Origin: Rhodothermaceae bacterium
GTDB lineage: Bacteria > Bacteroidota > Rhodothermia > Balneolales > Cyclonatronaceae
Assembly: GCA_020201275.1 (NCBI GenBank)
Contig: JAIVHB010000005.1
Location: 1-44,286 of the forward strand
DNA length: 44,286 nt
Direction of reading: 5' to 3'
Shown here: piece after piece, positions 34,173-42,136 of the stretch
How the letters are laid out: each line of letters opens with the position of its first letter
Numbering within the stretch: the first letter of the stretch is position 1
Translations under genes and position numbers: made by a program
The notes under the pieces: model-generated
What the model was told of the DNA's origin: nothing
Databases searched by the model: none
The model's input: only the letters and a program-made list of their open reading frames with translations

Positions 34173-35093
34173 GTGAAAATAACGGCATCAGTTCACCAAT
34201 TAGTTGGGCCATATATGAGCATCCAGTTACTGGAAAAGGGAAAAGAGAGAAAAAAACGTGCATTATCCGCATCCGAGGATTCGGGAAAACGCAGTGTTAC
34301 CAATAACACCGGGGAACATTCCAATGAGCAGGAGTCAGACAAGCTGCGTAACGAGGTTGGCCGGCTCAGGGGATTGATCAGGCAGAAAGATGATGAAATC
34401 TCAAGGCTCAACGATCAGAACCTGCATTTTCTGAACAGTGCAGCCCATGACCTTCGCAACCCGCTCGGCGTAATTCAAATGTACTGCGAATTCATGCAGA
34501 CCGAGCCGGGTGAAAGTGTTGATGAATCGCTCCGGGAATTTATCAGTGTTATTACAAGCACCGGCAGGCAGATGCAGGGCATCATCAACAACATGCTTGA
34601 CTATTCCAAGATGGAGTCGGGCAGTATAGGTCTTGAGATGATTCCGGTTGAGATGGACCATCTGCTGAGCAAGGCAATATTGGTAAGCACCAAAAAGGCA
34701 GCATCACATAATATTACACTGGTCAACGATTCGGCTGAAACCGGTATGGTTCTAACTATTGACGGGCACCGGATAGAACAGGCTGTTAATAATCTGATTG
34801 ATAACGCCATTAAATTCTCGAAACCGGGCAGCACGGTCCGGATCAGCTCGGACATGGCCGACAATGGATTCTACGTAATTGTAAGGGATGAGGGACAGGG
34901 AATTCCGGAAGCGGATCATCACAAATTGTTTAAACCGTTCAGTAAAACCCGTGTTCTGCCACTGAACGGTGATTCCAGAACAGGTTTGGGACTTGCCCTG
35001 GTTAAAACAATTGTCGAAAAGCACAACGGTTCGGTCGGCTTTGAGAGTGAAACGGGTAAGGGTTCTGAATTTTACTTCTGGCTTCCGGTCTGA
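34173..35093 (+). CDS. Soluble histidine kinase, first gene of the signalling operon
   Basis: This protein of about 306 residues has no membrane segment and no recognisable sensor domain. After a basic, low-complexity stretch (KGKERKKRALSASED) comes a coiled coil (about 50-85, RNEVGRLRGLIRQKDDEISR). HisKA follows with NSAAHDLRNPLGV (His about 92), then HATPase with NLIDNAIKF, RDEGQGIPEAD and TGLGLALVKTIV. The coiled coil may let it dimerise or dock on a partner. Start is GTG 34173 after an AGAGAGAGA stretch; ATG 34215 is an alternative. The next gene, a hybrid kinase with an N-terminal receiver, starts 21 bases after its stop, so that receiver is a natural phosphoryl acceptor. Confidence 0.87.
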   Translation: MKITASVHQLVGPYMSIQLLEKGKERKKRALSASEDSGKRSVTNNTGEHSNEQESDKLRNEVGRLRGLIRQKDDEISRLNDQNLHFLNSAAHDLRNPLGVIQMYCEFMQTEPGESVDESLREFISVITSTGRQMQGIINNMLDYSKMESGSIGLEMIPVEMDHLLSKAILVSTKKAASHNITLVNDSAETGMVLTIDGHRIEQAVNNLIDNAIKFSKPGSTVRISSDMADNGFYVIVRDEGQGIPEADHHKLFKPFSKTRVLPLNGDSRTGLGLALVKTIVEKHNGSVGFESETGKGSEFYFWLPV

Positions 35094-35114
35094 TGACCCG
35101 GAAAGGGCAGATTG

Positions 35115-37988
35115 ATGATGACTGATGTGATCAAAATACTCGTTGTTGACGATAATCCGCATATGCTGAAGGGGATTACCCGCCTTTTCAGGATAAACGG
35201 GTTTGAGGTTGTGGAAGCCATGAACGGAACAGGTGCCATTGAACTGGCGCGGAGCGGCCGTCCCGATCTCATTCTGCTCGATGTAAACCTGCCCGACATT
35301 AACGGTATCGAAGTTTGCCGCCGCCTGAAATCTGATCCAGATACGGCGAATATTTTCATTGTGCATCTGTCTGCCATGCACACAAACAGCAGCAGTCAGG
35401 TAGAGGGTCTTGAAGCGGGTGCCGACGGCTATATTGTGCAGCCGATCAGCAATCAGGAACTGCTTGCCCGCATACAATCACTTTCAAGGATCATATCGGC
35501 CGAAAAGGAACTGCACAGCCGTAAACAGGAATTTGAGGCACTAGTACAGAACGCGCCCGACCTGATTGCACGTATCGACCGGAACCTTGCTTATAGTTAT
35601 GTGAATCCGGTTGTTAGCCAGGTTTTTGGCAGGAAACCGGATGAAATTCTGGGACATACCCACCAGGCGGCTGGCCTGACAGAACCGGCATACCGTCATC
35701 TGGAGGCAGCGGTATCTTCTGTATTGTCGGGAGAAACCGAAAAAATGATTGAGCTTGAATTCACTCAGGGTGAATCATCCTCATGGTTCCAGGTACGGCT
35801 TGCTCCCGAACGGGATGTGCACGGGCACATTCATTCGGTTCTGTGCATATTCAGCGATATAACTGAACGGAAAATTGCCGAAGAGGAAATCCGGCTGCTG
35901 AACAAGGACCTTGAAAACAGGGTTGAACTCAGAACAGCCGAGCTGGCACAGACAAACCGGGAACTTGAGGCAGAAATTGCTGAAAGGGAGAAAACGGAGA
36001 CAGCTCTCAGAACAAGTGAGGCCCTGATGCGTCAGATTACCGACAATATGAACGATATTGTTCTGGTAACCGACAATGATGGCATTTTAACATACATTAC
36101 GCCGTCGGTGACCACCTCTCTGGGTTTGGAACCCCGTGAATGCATTGGGCAGCCGCTTAGCCGGTATTTTGACAAAAGTGACAAGGATAAGATCGAAGAG
36201 ACCGTTGCGGTTATCAGCAGGACAGGCTTTTCGGGCAGCAGTGAGTTCAATCTTACCCATAAAAACGGCACAAATTACTGTTTCGAAATAATTTCAGGTC
36301 CTCTGCTCGACGATCATAATGGTATAGTGGGCGTTATTGGAGGTGCCAGGAACATCACTGAACGGAAACACTCGGAAGAGGCCCTCCGGAACAGAACAGA
36401 TGAACTTGCGCTGGCCAATTTAAAACTGGCAAAGGCTTCAAAACTCAAAGATGAGTTTCTTTCGAGTATGAGCCATGAGCTCAGAACACCCCTGATTGCC
36501 GTGCTTGGTATCTCGGAAGCGCTTCAGGAAGAAGTGTATGGTACGCTTACCGAAAAACAGCACAAATCGCTCAAAACCATTGAGGAAAGCGGCAGGCATC
36601 TGCTCTCTCTTATCAACGATATTCTGGATATATCTAAAATAGAGGCCGGCAAGATGGAGCTGCAATATGCCCCCATCCATGCAGACTCGCTTTGCCAGTC
36701 GAGTATTCAGTTTGTGCGCCATTCAGCACAGGAAAAAAACCTTGATCTGCAGCTTCATATTGATGAAAACACAGACAGGGTACTGGGCGATGAACGGCGC
36801 CTGAAACAAATTCTGGTCAATCTGCTGGGCAACGCCGTCAAATTTACAGAAGAGGGTGGCAGAATCGGACTCGATGTAAGGACTGATATTGAATCGGATG
36901 CCGTAGAATTTGTGGTTTGGGATACAGGAATCGGTATAGCCCCTGAGCAGATGGACAGGATGTTTCAGCCCTTCGTTCAGCTCGATTCCAGCCTTTCGAG
37001 GCAATACAGCGGTACTGGCCTGGGCCTGTCGATTGTGCGTAAACTGATCGATATGCATGGCGGAAGTATAAATCTGGAGAGCCGGGAGGGTGAGGGAAGC
37101 AAATTTACAGTGCGGCTTAACAGATACACCGAATCGGATGCCCAGGGAATGAATGAGATCGGACAAATAATGGATATTTCGGATTTTCCGGTAAACAGGA
37201 ATATCCTGGTCATTCAGGAATCAGAATCGGAGTACAGCCAGATTAACCGGTATTTGCTTGATGCGGGAATTTCTGCGAGCTTTATGCAGTCGGCAAACGG
37301 ATATCTGGAGCATGCCGGAAATCTAAATCCTGATCTGATAATCCTGGATTATAACCTGCCCGATGATGCCGGGATCGTGGTGAAATCACTGCGCGGGACA
37401 GAGGTTTTGGCAAACACACCGGTTATAGTGGCCTCCCTGGTCAAATCGGCCTCTGCGGAACTGGCCGAACCTGATGTCGCATTTCTTACCAAACCCGTAA
37501 TGCGCCAGCAGCTTTACCATACCCTGCGCGATCTTTCTGAAAATCGGGATAATGGCGATCACCTGCGATTGAACGGCCCTGAAAAAATTAACCATAAGGC
37601 AGAACCGGTGTTCAAAATCCTGCTTGGCGACGAAAACGACAGAGTAATCAGATATTTCACTGAATACACAAAAAACAGAAACATTGAGTTGGTCACGGCC
37701 TCGTCGGGTGAAGAGGTCGTCAGGTTTGCCGCAGATTTCAGCCCCGATGTTATCATTATGGATTATTCACTTGCCGGACTGGATGCGTTGGCGGCTACAA
37801 AAATAATCAGGGAGAACCATCTTCCGGGCGAGGTTAAAGTAGTAATCACAAATGGCCAGGATCTGCCGTGGTCGGAAGAAAATGCACAATCGGCTGGTGC
37901 CGATCACTATTTAATCAAGCCTGTTTCATCAAAACGGTTAGACAAAATCATTCAGCCTGAAGGCATACTCATGCCATCAGATCATTAA
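35115..37988 (+). CDS. Hybrid kinase: REC-PAS-PAS-HisKA-HATPase-REC-REC
   Basis: This 957-residue cytoplasmic phosphorelay hub has seven domains. REC1 (about 7-120) has phospho-Asp 56, but the conserved Lys is Gln 109 (GYIVQPIS). PAS1 (about 140-260) ends SDITERKIAE. A coiled coil (about 260-300) leads to PAS2 (about 300-425, ending ARNITERKHSE). HisKA has SSMSHELRTPL (His 454). HATPase has NLLGNAVKF, DTGIGIAPEQMDRMF and GTGLGLS. REC2 (about 695-815) has Asp 745 and Lys in FLTKPV, but its acidic pocket reads IQESES. REC3 (about 835-955) has Asp 883 and Lys in YLIKPV. No HPt or DNA-binding output is present. Start is ATG 35115 behind AAAGGG; a TTG precedes it in frame. It is flanked by kinase genes at 21 and 8 bases, so all three are co-transcribed. 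Confidence 0.92.
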   Translation: MMTDVIKILVVDDNPHMLKGITRLFRINGFEVVEAMNGTGAIELARSGRPDLILLDVNLPDINGIEVCRRLKSDPDTANIFIVHLSAMHTNSSSQVEGLEAGADGYIVQPISNQELLARIQSLSRIISAEKELHSRKQEFEALVQNAPDLIARIDRNLAYSYVNPVVSQVFGRKPDEILGHTHQAAGLTEPAYRHLEAAVSSVLSGETEKMIELEFTQGESSSWFQVRLAPERDVHGHIHSVLCIFSDITERKIAEEEIRLLNKDLENRVELRTAELAQTNRELEAEIAEREKTETALRTSEALMRQITDNMNDIVLVTDNDGILTYITPSVTTSLGLEPRECIGQPLSRYFDKSDKDKIEETVAVISRTGFSGSSEFNLTHKNGTNYCFEIISGPLLDDHNGIVGVIGGARNITERKHSEEALRNRTDELALANLKLAKASKLKDEFLSSMSHELRTPLIAVLGISEALQEEVYGTLTEKQHKSLKTIEESGRHLLSLINDILDISKIEAGKMELQYAPIHADSLCQSSIQFVRHSAQEKNLDLQLHIDENTDRVLGDERRLKQILVNLLGNAVKFTEEGGRIGLDVRTDIESDAVEFVVWDTGIGIAPEQMDRMFQPFVQLDSSLSRQYSGTGLGLSIVRKLIDMHGGSINLESREGEGSKFTVRLNRYTESDAQGMNEIGQIMDISDFPVNRNILVIQESESEYSQINRYLLDAGISASFMQSANGYLEHAGNLNPDLIILDYNLPDDAGIVVKSLRGTEVLANTPVIVASLVKSASAELAEPDVAFLTKPVMRQQLYHTLRDLSENRDNGDHLRLNGPEKINHKAEPVFKILLGDENDRVIRYFTEYTKNRNIELVTASSGEEVVRFAADFSPDVIIMDYSLAGLDALAATKIIRENHLPGEVKVVITNGQDLPWSEENAQSAGADHYLIKPVSSKRLDKIIQPEGILMPSDH

Positions 37989-37996
37989 GCACAATT

Positions 37997-39493
37997 ATGG
38001 AATACACAAGTACGATTTTAATTATCGACGACGAGAAAAGTGCAAGGGAAACGCTTGAGGCTCTGCTTGCCAATGAAAGTTACATCCTGCACTTTGCCAA
38101 AAACGGAACAGAAGGCCTTGAAATGGCCGTGGATCTGAATCCGGATCTGATCCTGCTCGACGTTATGATGCCGGGTGTAAACGGTTTTGAGGTCTGCAGC
38201 CGTTTACGGTCGAACCCAATGATGGCCGAGGTACCGATAATTCTTGTAACCGCCCTCGACGACCGTGATTCCCATCTGCATGGAATAGCATCCGGTGCCG
38301 ACGATTTCGTTACAAAGCCGTTCGACCGGCTGGAGCTGCGTGCCCGTATCAGGAATATCACCAGACTGAACCGGTACCGGCGGCTGGTATCTGAGAGATC
38401 CAAGTTCGAATGGGTGGTTGAACAGACCAATGAGGGCTACATCCTGCTCGATAATAACGACAGGATACAGTATGCCAATCCCCAGGCGAGAATATATCTT
38501 GGCCTTACCGATAATGAAGAACCGCCCTATCATGGCACGTTCCTGGGCAGGGCCGGTAAGGAATACGGTGTAGAACCATCGAATCTTTGGGAAGGCTGGC
38601 CTGCCAGCGCCGACCCAAAATACAACAGGTATCTTGTTCGCCCTGAAACGGATAATGCACGGGCACTGTGGCTTCAGGTTGAATCGCTTGTGTTGCCATC
38701 AGGATCGGGTTCCGAGCACCTGGTGAGGCTGCGGGATGTGACCGCAGAAATCACCCTTCAGATCGAGATGCACTCCTTCACACAGATGGTTCATCACAAG
38801 CTGAGAACACCGCTTACGTCCCTGTACGGCGGCATACAGTATCTGGCTGAGGAATCGGCCAATCTGAACGGCGAAGAGATAGCCGAAATGGCAGAAATCG
38901 CATTTAAGGGAATCGACAACCTGAGGCAGGAGGTCGAAGAGATTTTACAGTACGTGCATGTAGGACGTATGCCAACAAGCGGTGATGGATTCAGCCTGAC
39001 ACAGGTTACAGCCATGGCCGAATATCTCGGTAAGGAACTTGCAATGGACCACATCCACACCGCGATACATGGTTCCTTGTCAAAGTTCAGTATCAGGCTC
39101 ATGCCGCAGGCTATGGAACAGATACTGCGGGAACTGCTGCAGAACTCGAAAAAATTCCATCCCAAAGGCAAGCCCGATGTAAACATCATATTCGAACCGA
39201 CCGACGACGGGCGGGTACGCATCACAGTTAAAGATAACGGGCAAAGCCTCTCGCCCGAACAACTTCGGCATGTTTGGAAGCCATACTACCAGGCCGAAAA
39301 GAGTCAGAGCGGCCGCATACCGGGTATGGGCCTCGGCCTTTCGATGGTAGCCAGTCTGGTATGGGGGGTTGGGGGAACCTGCAATCTATATAATCGTGAA
39401 GATGCCAACGGTGTTGTTGTGGATATTAAAATCCCGCTCGACAGCATTGAAAAAAATAAACCGGCACGACGGAAGGCAAAAGCTTCAGTATAG
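37997..39493 (+). CDS. REC-PAS-histidine kinase with altered H-box
   Basis: This 498-residue protein has a canonical N-terminal receiver (about 5-122; DD pair, phospho-Asp 55, Thr in VTALDD, Lys in FVTKPFD). A PAS-like domain (about 135-250, EQTNEGYILLDNNDRIQYAN) follows, then HisKA (about 255-330) with MVHHKLRTPLTSL, where Lys 268 replaces the acidic residue that normally follows the phospho-His (His 267). The HATPase (about 365-480) has ELLQNSKKFHPKG, KDNGQSLSPEQ and MGLGLSMVASLV. Receiver-first kinases of this shape usually act as relays whose kinase activity is set by receiver phosphorylation. The gene starts 8 bases after the hybrid kinase. Its 3' end overlaps by 9 bases the end of a truncated trkA remnant on the other strand. 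Confidence 0.9.
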   Translation: MEYTSTILIIDDEKSARETLEALLANESYILHFAKNGTEGLEMAVDLNPDLILLDVMMPGVNGFEVCSRLRSNPMMAEVPIILVTALDDRDSHLHGIASGADDFVTKPFDRLELRARIRNITRLNRYRRLVSERSKFEWVVEQTNEGYILLDNNDRIQYANPQARIYLGLTDNEEPPYHGTFLGRAGKEYGVEPSNLWEGWPASADPKYNRYLVRPETDNARALWLQVESLVLPSGSGSEHLVRLRDVTAEITLQIEMHSFTQMVHHKLRTPLTSLYGGIQYLAEESANLNGEEIAEMAEIAFKGIDNLRQEVEEILQYVHVGRMPTSGDGFSLTQVTAMAEYLGKELAMDHIHTAIHGSLSKFSIRLMPQAMEQILRELLQNSKKFHPKGKPDVNIIFEPTDDGRVRITVKDNGQSLSPEQLRHVWKPYYQAEKSQSGRIPGMGLGLSMVASLVWGVGGTCNLYNREDANGVVVDIKIPLDSIEKNKPARRKAKASV

Positions 39494-39778
39494 CGTTAAG
39501 GACTTCCAAAAAGCCGGGCTGGTCCCTGATGCCACGATATTCACCTCGTCAACGTCGGTAGCGGCTACAACCAGATCGGCTTTGTCGACACCTGCTAGTA
39601 GCAGATCGGTAACCGAGGTGCCGCTGCCTGTAACCGGTAGTATGTCGAACCGGCTGGAGCAGTGCTGCAGGGCGGCTTCGCTCTTGTCGGGTTTGGTTAC
39701 GTTGAGTTTCTCCCGCGACAGCATCCCGACCAGATTATTGTCAACGTTTCCGGCGGTGCCAATAATTACAATGTTCAA
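39485..39778 (-). pseudogene. Truncated trkA remnant (first RCK/TrkA-N domain only)
   Basis: The 97-residue frame starts like TrkA, the NAD-binding subunit of Trk potassium uptake: MNIVIIG, REKLNVTKPDKSEAALQ, VTGSGTSVTDLLLAGVDKADLVVAATDVDEVNIVA. It then departs into SGTSPAFWKSLTLY and stops. TrkA normally has about 450 residues, so more than three quarters are missing. The nucleotide loop is also damaged: where TrkA has GxGxVG, this reads GTAGNVDNN. The start is TTG at 39778. The break point lies against the end of the convergent kinase gene, as if a deletion or rearrangement fused the two. It is divergent from a K+ channel gene that is also broken. Function is very unlikely. Confidence 0.78.
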
Positions 39779-41548: not shown

Positions 41549-42136
41549 ATGTATCCGACAAAAGCATTATTTCCAAGAGTCTATTACTTTGAGAAACCGA
41601 AGTCACAATATCGGAGTATAAAGCCTCAAAGCATGCGACTGGTAGAGGAGCATGAATTGAAATCAACTGGAATAACGGATCTTGATCAAACAGAAGGTAT
41701 GATTGATTTAAAAAAATACGCCGGCGCAAACGGTGAAGTATTAACTTCCAACAAAAAAGAGGTTATGCGCACACTTCATATTGAGGATAACGCCGAGATA
41801 AGGCTTATTGTAAAATGCTTCCTGAGGAAAAACTTTGCAGTTGAATCGGTAGCAACGGGGCAACAGGCACTGGAAATCATCAAGCAGAAGAAATTCGATC
41901 TGATCATCGTCGATATTAATCTCGGCGACGGACCAGATGGTATTGAAACTGCAAGACTGATCAGAAATGTGGAAGGATACGCTGATACACCCATTATTGC
42001 AGCAACAGCTAACCTCTATACCGATGTTAGAGACAACTGCATTAAAGCGGGTATTGACGCATTCATACAGAAACCTTTTCTGAAAATTGACCTGGTAAAC
42101 ACCATCAGTCAGGTTATCTACAACAGGGGAAACTGA
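41549..42136 (+). CDS. Stand-alone response regulator receiver protein
   Basis: This 195-residue protein has a C-terminal receiver domain (about 72-192). It has the acidic pair in HIEDNAEIR, phospho-Asp in LIIVDINLGDGPDG, Thr in AATANLYT and Lys in FIQKPF. It is followed by no output domain. The first 70 residues are polar and of unknown nature (YYFEKPKSQYRSIKPQS, VEEHELKSTGITDLDQ). If that segment is real coding sequence, it may be a flexible docking tail. An in-frame ATG near 41764 would start just before the receiver and is an alternative start. It could accept phosphate from the kinases of the operon at 34-39 kb, but the broken K+ channel gene lies between. The next gene begins 79 bases downstream. 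Confidence 0.85.
   Translation: MYPTKALFPRVYYFEKPKSQYRSIKPQSMRLVEEHELKSTGITDLDQTEGMIDLKKYAGANGEVLTSNKKEVMRTLHIEDNAEIRLIVKCFLRKNFAVESVATGQQALEIIKQKKFDLIIVDINLGDGPDGIETARLIRNVEGYADTPIIAATANLYTDVRDNCIKAGIDAFIQKPFLKIDLVNTISQVIYNRGN

Follow-up and report, generated by a model that had tools for sequence, protein, structure and literature searches.

In a recently solved virulence relay of pathogenic Leptospira, the PAS hybrid kinase LvrA phosphorylates LvrB, which then phosphorylates LvrC; LvrB is a REC-controlled kinase and works a coiled-coil switch through its receiver (PMC5863495, PMC13269768). PakF of Sphingomonas, a REC-controlled kinase of the HWE/HisKA_2 type, is phosphorylated by the upstream kinase KipF (PMC5898713, PMC5863495) and autophosphorylates (PMC5898713, PMC12148442). 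HWE/HisKA_2 kinases carry an HRxxN motif and, in the N-box, Glu at the position of the first Asn (PMC5898713, PMC12148442). In HisKA proteins, the acidic residue after the phospho-His (H+1) is the general base and contacts the N-box Asn, as in CpxA (PMC3904827). Loss of this residue killed the kinase activity and not the phosphatase activity of CrdS, HK853, and two others, and autophosphorylation was abolished in every HisKA kinase tested in that study (PMC3510030), as well as in Agp1. Thr/Asn at H+4 is needed in HisKA proteins for phosphatase activity alone (PMC3510030). DrBphP, with His at both H+1 and the N-box position, acts as an ATP-requiring phosphatase (PMC8292422).

Herein, we analysed a window of 44,286 nucleotides on contig C139 of a 3.4-Mb draft genome, where the ORF map places three kinase genes, K1, HY, and K3, consecutively on the plus strand. 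Like LvrA and LvrB, HY and K3 are a PAS hybrid kinase and a REC-controlled kinase encoded side by side, neither with a DNA-binding domain, and K3 resembles LvrB in being a receiver-first kinase; a helix predicted in K3 may correspond to the long signalling helix of LvrB. However, LvrB is an active autokinase of the order REC-DHp-CA without PAS, whereas K3 has a PAS domain, Lys after the phospho-His, and an N-box Glu. The receiver of LvrA is followed by a second kinase module, where HY has two tail receivers instead, and the third, sensorless kinase K1 is not part of the LvrA-LvrB system. GacS/RetS-type multikinase networks and ShkA-type pseudo-receiver hybrids also share features with the trio, namely several signal-integrating kinases with receivers, and tandem receivers with deviant switch residues. 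Unlike the tandem kinases of C139, which have no linked exit, those systems have scattered genes and a known HPt/regulator exit.

Gene order and domain content of the kinase locus

K1 (34215–35093) is a sensorless protein with a coiled coil followed by HisKA (AAHDLRNPL) and HATPase_c; its phospho-His is followed by the canonical Asp, and its N-box Asn is also canonical. The ORF is open from a GTG at 34173, and the start is probably the ATG at 34215, because the ORF of the sister species begins at the equivalent ATG. HY (35118–37988) has the domain order REC1-PAS-PAS-HisKA-HATPase_c-REC2-REC3, with canonical HELRTP and NLLGN boxes in the HisKA and HATPase_c domains (36447–37121). Its ORF is open from a TTG at 35112, and the sister start is the codon equivalent to 35118. 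K3 (37997–39493) has the order REC-PAS-HisKA-HATPase_c and is a member of a cross-phylum family. All three genes lie on the plus strand. Checking of the coordinates confirmed the predicted gaps of 21 bases between K1 and HY (counted to the ATG at 35115) and 8 bases between HY and K3. Domain calls with Pfam profiles likewise agreed with the original prediction of three HisKA-HATPase transmitters and four receivers, with neither an HPt nor a DNA-binding domain in the three proteins; the PAS domain of K3 had been overlooked.

With no HPt domain within the three-gene set, the locus does not encode a classical HPt phosphorelay. A genome-wide search with the Hpt profile returned one sub-threshold match alone (21.2 bits against a cut-off of 24.6), in a 130-aa ORF outside the kinase locus (L001, G000:C226:11003-11236, minus strand). 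It is possible that this candidate is shared among the many hybrid kinases of the genome. Promoter and terminator consensus scans gave matches no more numerous than in shuffled sequences.

Conservation in a sister species

We compared the locus with one congener, the public Balneolaceae MAG DLM2.Bin41, referred to here as the sister species. Most of the region from 25.5 to 44 kb aligned with a sister contig at 80–86% DNA identity, and the three kinases, for which loss of synteny in close relatives had been named as a refutation, occurred there in the same order. The dN/dS values against the sister were 0.12 for K1, 0.10 for HY, and 0.028 for K3, indicating that these are genuine genes under purifying selection and not chance ORFs. 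The K3 proteins were 95% identical. Within HY, the DHp domain (99%) and REC1 (92%) were the most conserved parts, and REC3 (79%) was the least conserved. The complete trio was absent outside the genus, and no other full-length K3 was found in the 60 genomes searched in the order or among 395 genomes sampled evenly across the phylum.

Switch residues of the HY receivers

REC1 of HY (35136–35477, plus strand) retains the acidic pair (DD), the phospho-Asp, and Ser, and has Gln in place of the switch Lys (codon 35439–35441). REC2 (37203–37523, plus strand) has Gln-Glu for the acidic pair, followed by Asp, Ser, and Lys, with the Asp and Lys retained. Both the Gln of REC1 and the atypical acidic pocket of REC2 had been predicted, and both were identical in the sister species. 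REC3 (37617–37949, plus strand) keeps Asp-Glu, Asp, and Lys; it proved to be degenerate too, which had been missed, with Asn at the Thr/Ser position and Arg for the Lys in the sister. The phospho-Asp is retained in all three receivers. The REC2-equivalent receivers of other hybrids with tandem tail receivers were also atypical, and one of them (L079) has His for the phospho-Asp.

The Gln of REC1 was not unique. It also occurred in a genome of the same class (G341), in the motif GADGYIVQP, and among the plasmid homologues of REC1, the best three carry Glu, His, and His in place of the switch Lys. Across 198 genomes of the phylum, Gln in the context GAD[GA]Y was rare, with 2 sites versus about 90 with Lys. 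In G341, the best match to K1 outside the genus, a sensorless kinase of 267 aa with 39% identity, is encoded 15 bases upstream of a REC(GADGYIVQP)-PAS-kinase-REC hybrid. Based on the G341 Gln and the Glu/His/His of the plasmid homologues, REC1 can be assigned to a receiver subfamily without the switch Lys, which occurs together with a K1-type kinase in at least two cases.

A swapped pair of catalytic residues in K3

Pfam placed REC at residues 7–119 of K3, HisKA at 260–319, and HATPase_c at 371–482, which is the LvrB-type architecture of an N-terminal receiver and a DHp-CA transmitter in a single protein. The receiver (38015–38353, plus strand) has the canonical DD/D/T/K residues, as do the receivers of nearly all family members, and a predicted long helix leads from it to the PAS/kinase core. 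In the AlphaFold model, this helix spans residues 111–142, with the PAS domain between the helix and the DHp; the domains are sound, and the pTM (0.45) and the inter-domain confidence are low. A fold search with this model of low inter-domain confidence gave LvrB among the best matches.

In K3, phospho-His267 is followed by Lys268 (38795–38800, plus strand) where ordinary HisKA kinases have the acidic general base. This Lys (codon 38798–38800) had been predicted and was identical in the sister species. A second substitution, overlooked earlier, is Glu379 (39131–39133, plus strand), which stands at the first N-box Asn position (ELLQN383SKKFHP). In an alignment with HK853, Lys268 falls on Glu261 and Glu379 on the first Asn of the HK853 N-box. 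The Thr at H+4 is retained in K3 (HKLRT) and most homologues, and the ATP boxes are conserved.

The H+1 and N-box residues were then scored in all kinases of the retrieved loci. All 42 K3-family members had Lys/Arg at H+1, and the N-box residue was Glu in 39, Gln in 2, and Asn in 1; these last three retained the Lys. In the other HisKA kinases, H+1 was Asp/Glu in 136/136 and the first N-box residue was Asn in 130/136. Six family members had Ala at H+4 (HKLRAP). Thus, the Lys after the phospho-His is present as predicted, but it is not an oddity of this copy: it is a signature of the K3 family in three phyla, and a lesion of a single copy was rejected for that reason. Since one ancestral swap gives the same table, the counts within the family are compatible with one event or few and do not represent independent covariation.

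As to the class of K3, HisKA (PF00512) matched 13 of 14 members and HATPase_c all 14 (Pfam, E <= 0.1), and neither HisKA_2 nor HWE_HK matched any of the 14; the H-box of K3 is HKLRTP and not HRxxN. HisKA_2-like motifs that could serve as a control were not found in the retrieved loci. An assignment of K3 to the HWE/HisKA_2 kinases was rejected by the Pfam profiles. Judged by single residues, the family falls outside HisKA as defined by an acidic residue after the phospho-His, and inside HWE/HisKA_2 as defined by Glu for the first N-box Asn (39/42; definition in PMC12148442). K3 and the HWE/HisKA_2 kinases share a basic residue after the phospho-His and this Glu (PMC12148442), whereas K3 differs from them in its HisKA H-box order (HKLRTPL) and its Pfam matches. 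DrBphP, like K3, is a HisKA protein with a non-acidic H+1 in which the first N-box Asn is absent (PMC8292422); it has the pair His/His, Glu at H+4, and a phytochrome input, whereas K3 has Lys/Glu, Thr at H+4, and a receiver input.

Distribution and neighbours of the K3 family

Relatives of K3 were sought in GTDB species genomes. Full-length relatives with 41–47% identity were found in Thiomargarita, Parabeggiatoa, other Thiotrichales, and Anaerolineae/Caldilineaceae, and whole-genome searches showed up to five copies per genome. In the class of locus L071, 14 of 199 genomes were positive. Directly behind a same-strand hybrid kinase lay 11 of the 20 K3 genes of Chloroflexota, with gaps of −8 to 150 bases, and none of the 15 readable K3 genes of Beggiatoa-type bacteria. 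At L071, a sensor kinase gene is followed by a REC-PAS-PAS-GAF-kinase-REC-REC hybrid and then by K3, which matches the three-step plan of the C139 trio.

The kinase and tail of HY (residues 411–958) matched the L071 hybrid with 43% identity and 412 bits (tblastn); the kinase with both tail receivers gave 365 bits with L079 and 363 bits with L161, and the best match among 60 relatives in the order reached 35% identity and 235 bits, values from two different search tools that compare in rank order alone. Because the HY tail is nearest to K3-linked Chloroflexota hybrids, the HY tail and K3 look like a co-inherited unit of the Chloroflexota type. In the tree, the Balneolota K3 pair formed an isolated branch, arising at an open node among members from Chloroflexota and Gammaproteobacteria. 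This isolated position points to lateral acquisition of K3, with a donor that the tree does not fix.

In HGW-Chloroflexi-6 (L079:7847-12517), a three-receiver hybrid kinase is followed by a REC-HD-GYP protein (REC-HD_5) in the K3 slot. The receiver of this protein is 63% identical to that of K3, which argues that the K3-type receiver is the target of the hybrid regardless of the fused output. L079 would then be an output swap behind the same hybrid, with c-di-GMP hydrolysis in place of a kinase.

Other neighbours differed between the groups. Five Chloroflexota K3 genes (L158, L159, L162, L169, and L171) are followed by a REC-kinase with ordinary H- and N-boxes, and the relay may have one further step there. 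At two Beggiatoa-type loci (L068:3403-5397 and L069:11536-13362), K3 adjoins a 608–664-aa protein starting with MLPLxKVVLFKHGVGxFEREGQ, a possible recurrent partner of K3 in such genomes.

The 41.5-kb receiver and the probable insertion site

A stand-alone receiver (41549–42136, plus strand) had been proposed as the exit of the circuit. Its orthologues (39–58% identity) are spread over the order, are present in genomes that lack K3, and have conserved neighbours of their own. At the six best-readable loci, a TPR gene and a convergently oriented CHAT gene follow the receiver, with no kinase trio; at a seventh locus (L202), the contig stops behind the receiver. A two-RCK K+ channel lies upstream of the receiver at some loci. 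The receiver is thus part of an older receiver-TPR-CHAT cassette (convergent CHAT, often with the K+ channel), present at 41549–44239 of C139 and at L198-L201, L203, and L204, and not part of the kinase set. By this order-wide synteny it was rejected as the relay exit.

The end of K3 is abutted by an N-terminal trkA remnant (39485–39778, minus strand; 97 aa; TrkA_N, E 3e-9). At L199 and L202, a trkA-like gene is divergent to the K+ channel, and the C139 remnant has the same orientation. It is absent from the sister species, in which the same stretch consists of low-complexity repeats. Since the remnant abuts K3, the kinase set was probably inserted at this trkA scar, beside the older cassette, and the nearness of the kinases to the receiver would be a by-product of that insertion. 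Between the two, the two-RCK potassium channel gene of C139 (39852–41376) is split into two ORFs, with about 60 residues missing and the frame shifted; the sister channel (L052:15115-16806) is an intact ORF of 563 aa. The split reflects either real decay or an assembly error in the draft genome.

Discussion

According to the above results, we give a probability of about 50% to a multikinase relay of the LvrA-LvrB kind, in which HY controls K3 through its receiver and K3 is a kinase with a relocated base. The steps that we infer are as follows. K1 and HY would autophosphorylate on their ordinary HisKA histidines, and REC1 of HY, which keeps the phospho-Asp and has no switch Lys, would be the input or docking domain for K1. 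HY would hand phosphoryl groups to the canonical K3 receiver, which would switch the K3 transmitter through the long helix. K3 would then work as a kinase in which the Glu at the first N-box position has taken over the role of general base from H+1, where Lys now stands, and the output of K3 would reach an unlinked response regulator.

Several lines of evidence favour this relay. K3 genes of Chloroflexota often stand directly behind a hybrid kinase, the HY kinase and tail are closest to Chloroflexota hybrids, and the REC-HD_5 receiver of L079 marks the K3-type receiver as the hybrid's target. The K3 receiver is canonical in nearly all members, K3 has a dN/dS as low as 0.028, and phosphorylation from LvrA through LvrB to LvrC is a precedent shown by biochemistry. 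The G341 gene pair, with a K1-like kinase in front of a REC-PAS hybrid, also favours the relay. The Beggiatoa-type K3 genes, none of which lies behind a hybrid in the 15 readable cases, speak against it, as does the lack of a linked cognate regulator. The original prediction of an integrating circuit without its own output therefore holds in part: the hybrids upstream of K3-type kinases in Chloroflexota and the LvrA/LvrB precedent support the circuit, but not the exit proposed for it.

The residues of K3 fit two readings, a kinase with different wiring and a protein devoted to phosphatase activity. HWE/HisKA_2 kinases autophosphorylate, so a functional example of the Lys/Glu pair exists in another superfamily, which favours an active kinase. 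The effect of losing the acidic H+1 (PMC3510030) and the phosphatase DrBphP argue against a kinase, and a relocated base is further weakened by the fact that the swap is one family trait and that three members combine Lys with N-box Asn or Gln. Tentatively, and at somewhat less than even odds, we consider K3 to represent a distinct HisKA class with the base moved from H+1 to the N-box, that is, an HWE/HisKA_2 arrangement in a HisKA scaffold, which would have spread over Chloroflexota, Beggiatoa-type Gammaproteobacteria, and Balneolota as a terminal receiver-gated relay step.

The main alternative, unlikely though well short of far-fetched, is that K3 is instead a receiver-gated phosphatase without autokinase activity, with HY toggling the stripping of phosphate from an unlinked regulator. 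DrBphP gives such a protein a precedent, with a non-acidic H+1 and an altered N-box in an ATP-needing phosphatase (PMC8292422), and the division of labour between the H+1 acid, needed solely for the kinase, and the H+4 Thr/Asn, needed solely for the phosphatase (PMC3510030), agrees with the Thr and the conserved ATP boxes of K3 and most homologues. However, the N-box residue is not random but specifically Glu, as in active HWE kinases, and Ala at H+4 in the six HKLRAP members would be expected to impair a pure phosphatase.

We regard as improbable a phosphate-buffering or purely allosteric complex, in which K1, HY, and K3 would influence one another through direct contacts between the kinases, pseudo-receivers of HY would hold the kinase in a ShkA-like clamp, and phosphotransfer between the gene products would be minor. 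Pseudo-receivers that inhibit hybrid kinases are known (PMC12632262), all three HY receivers are off consensus, and one homologous REC2 lacks the Asp; yet neither the HY receivers nor the canonical receiver of K3 have lost the phospho-Asp, and receivers altered at DD, T, or K can still be phosphorylated (PMC12632262). An exit through the receiver at 41549–42136 is very improbable, because the order-wide cassette without K3 and the position of the kinases at the trkA scar outweigh its location 2 kb downstream on the same strand and the presence of both kinases and receiver in the sister species.

Descriptions of HisKA kinases present the acidic residue after the phospho-His as strictly conserved and as indispensable for autophosphorylation. 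A family under selection in three phyla, with Lys at this position and a possibly compensating Glu in the N-box, asks whether the general base moves between domains; the alternative lesson would be that receiver-gated phosphatases evolved from kinases. REC-controlled kinases have so far been characterised in few bacteria such as Leptospira, and the K3 family adds to them a wide set with syntenic hybrid partners.
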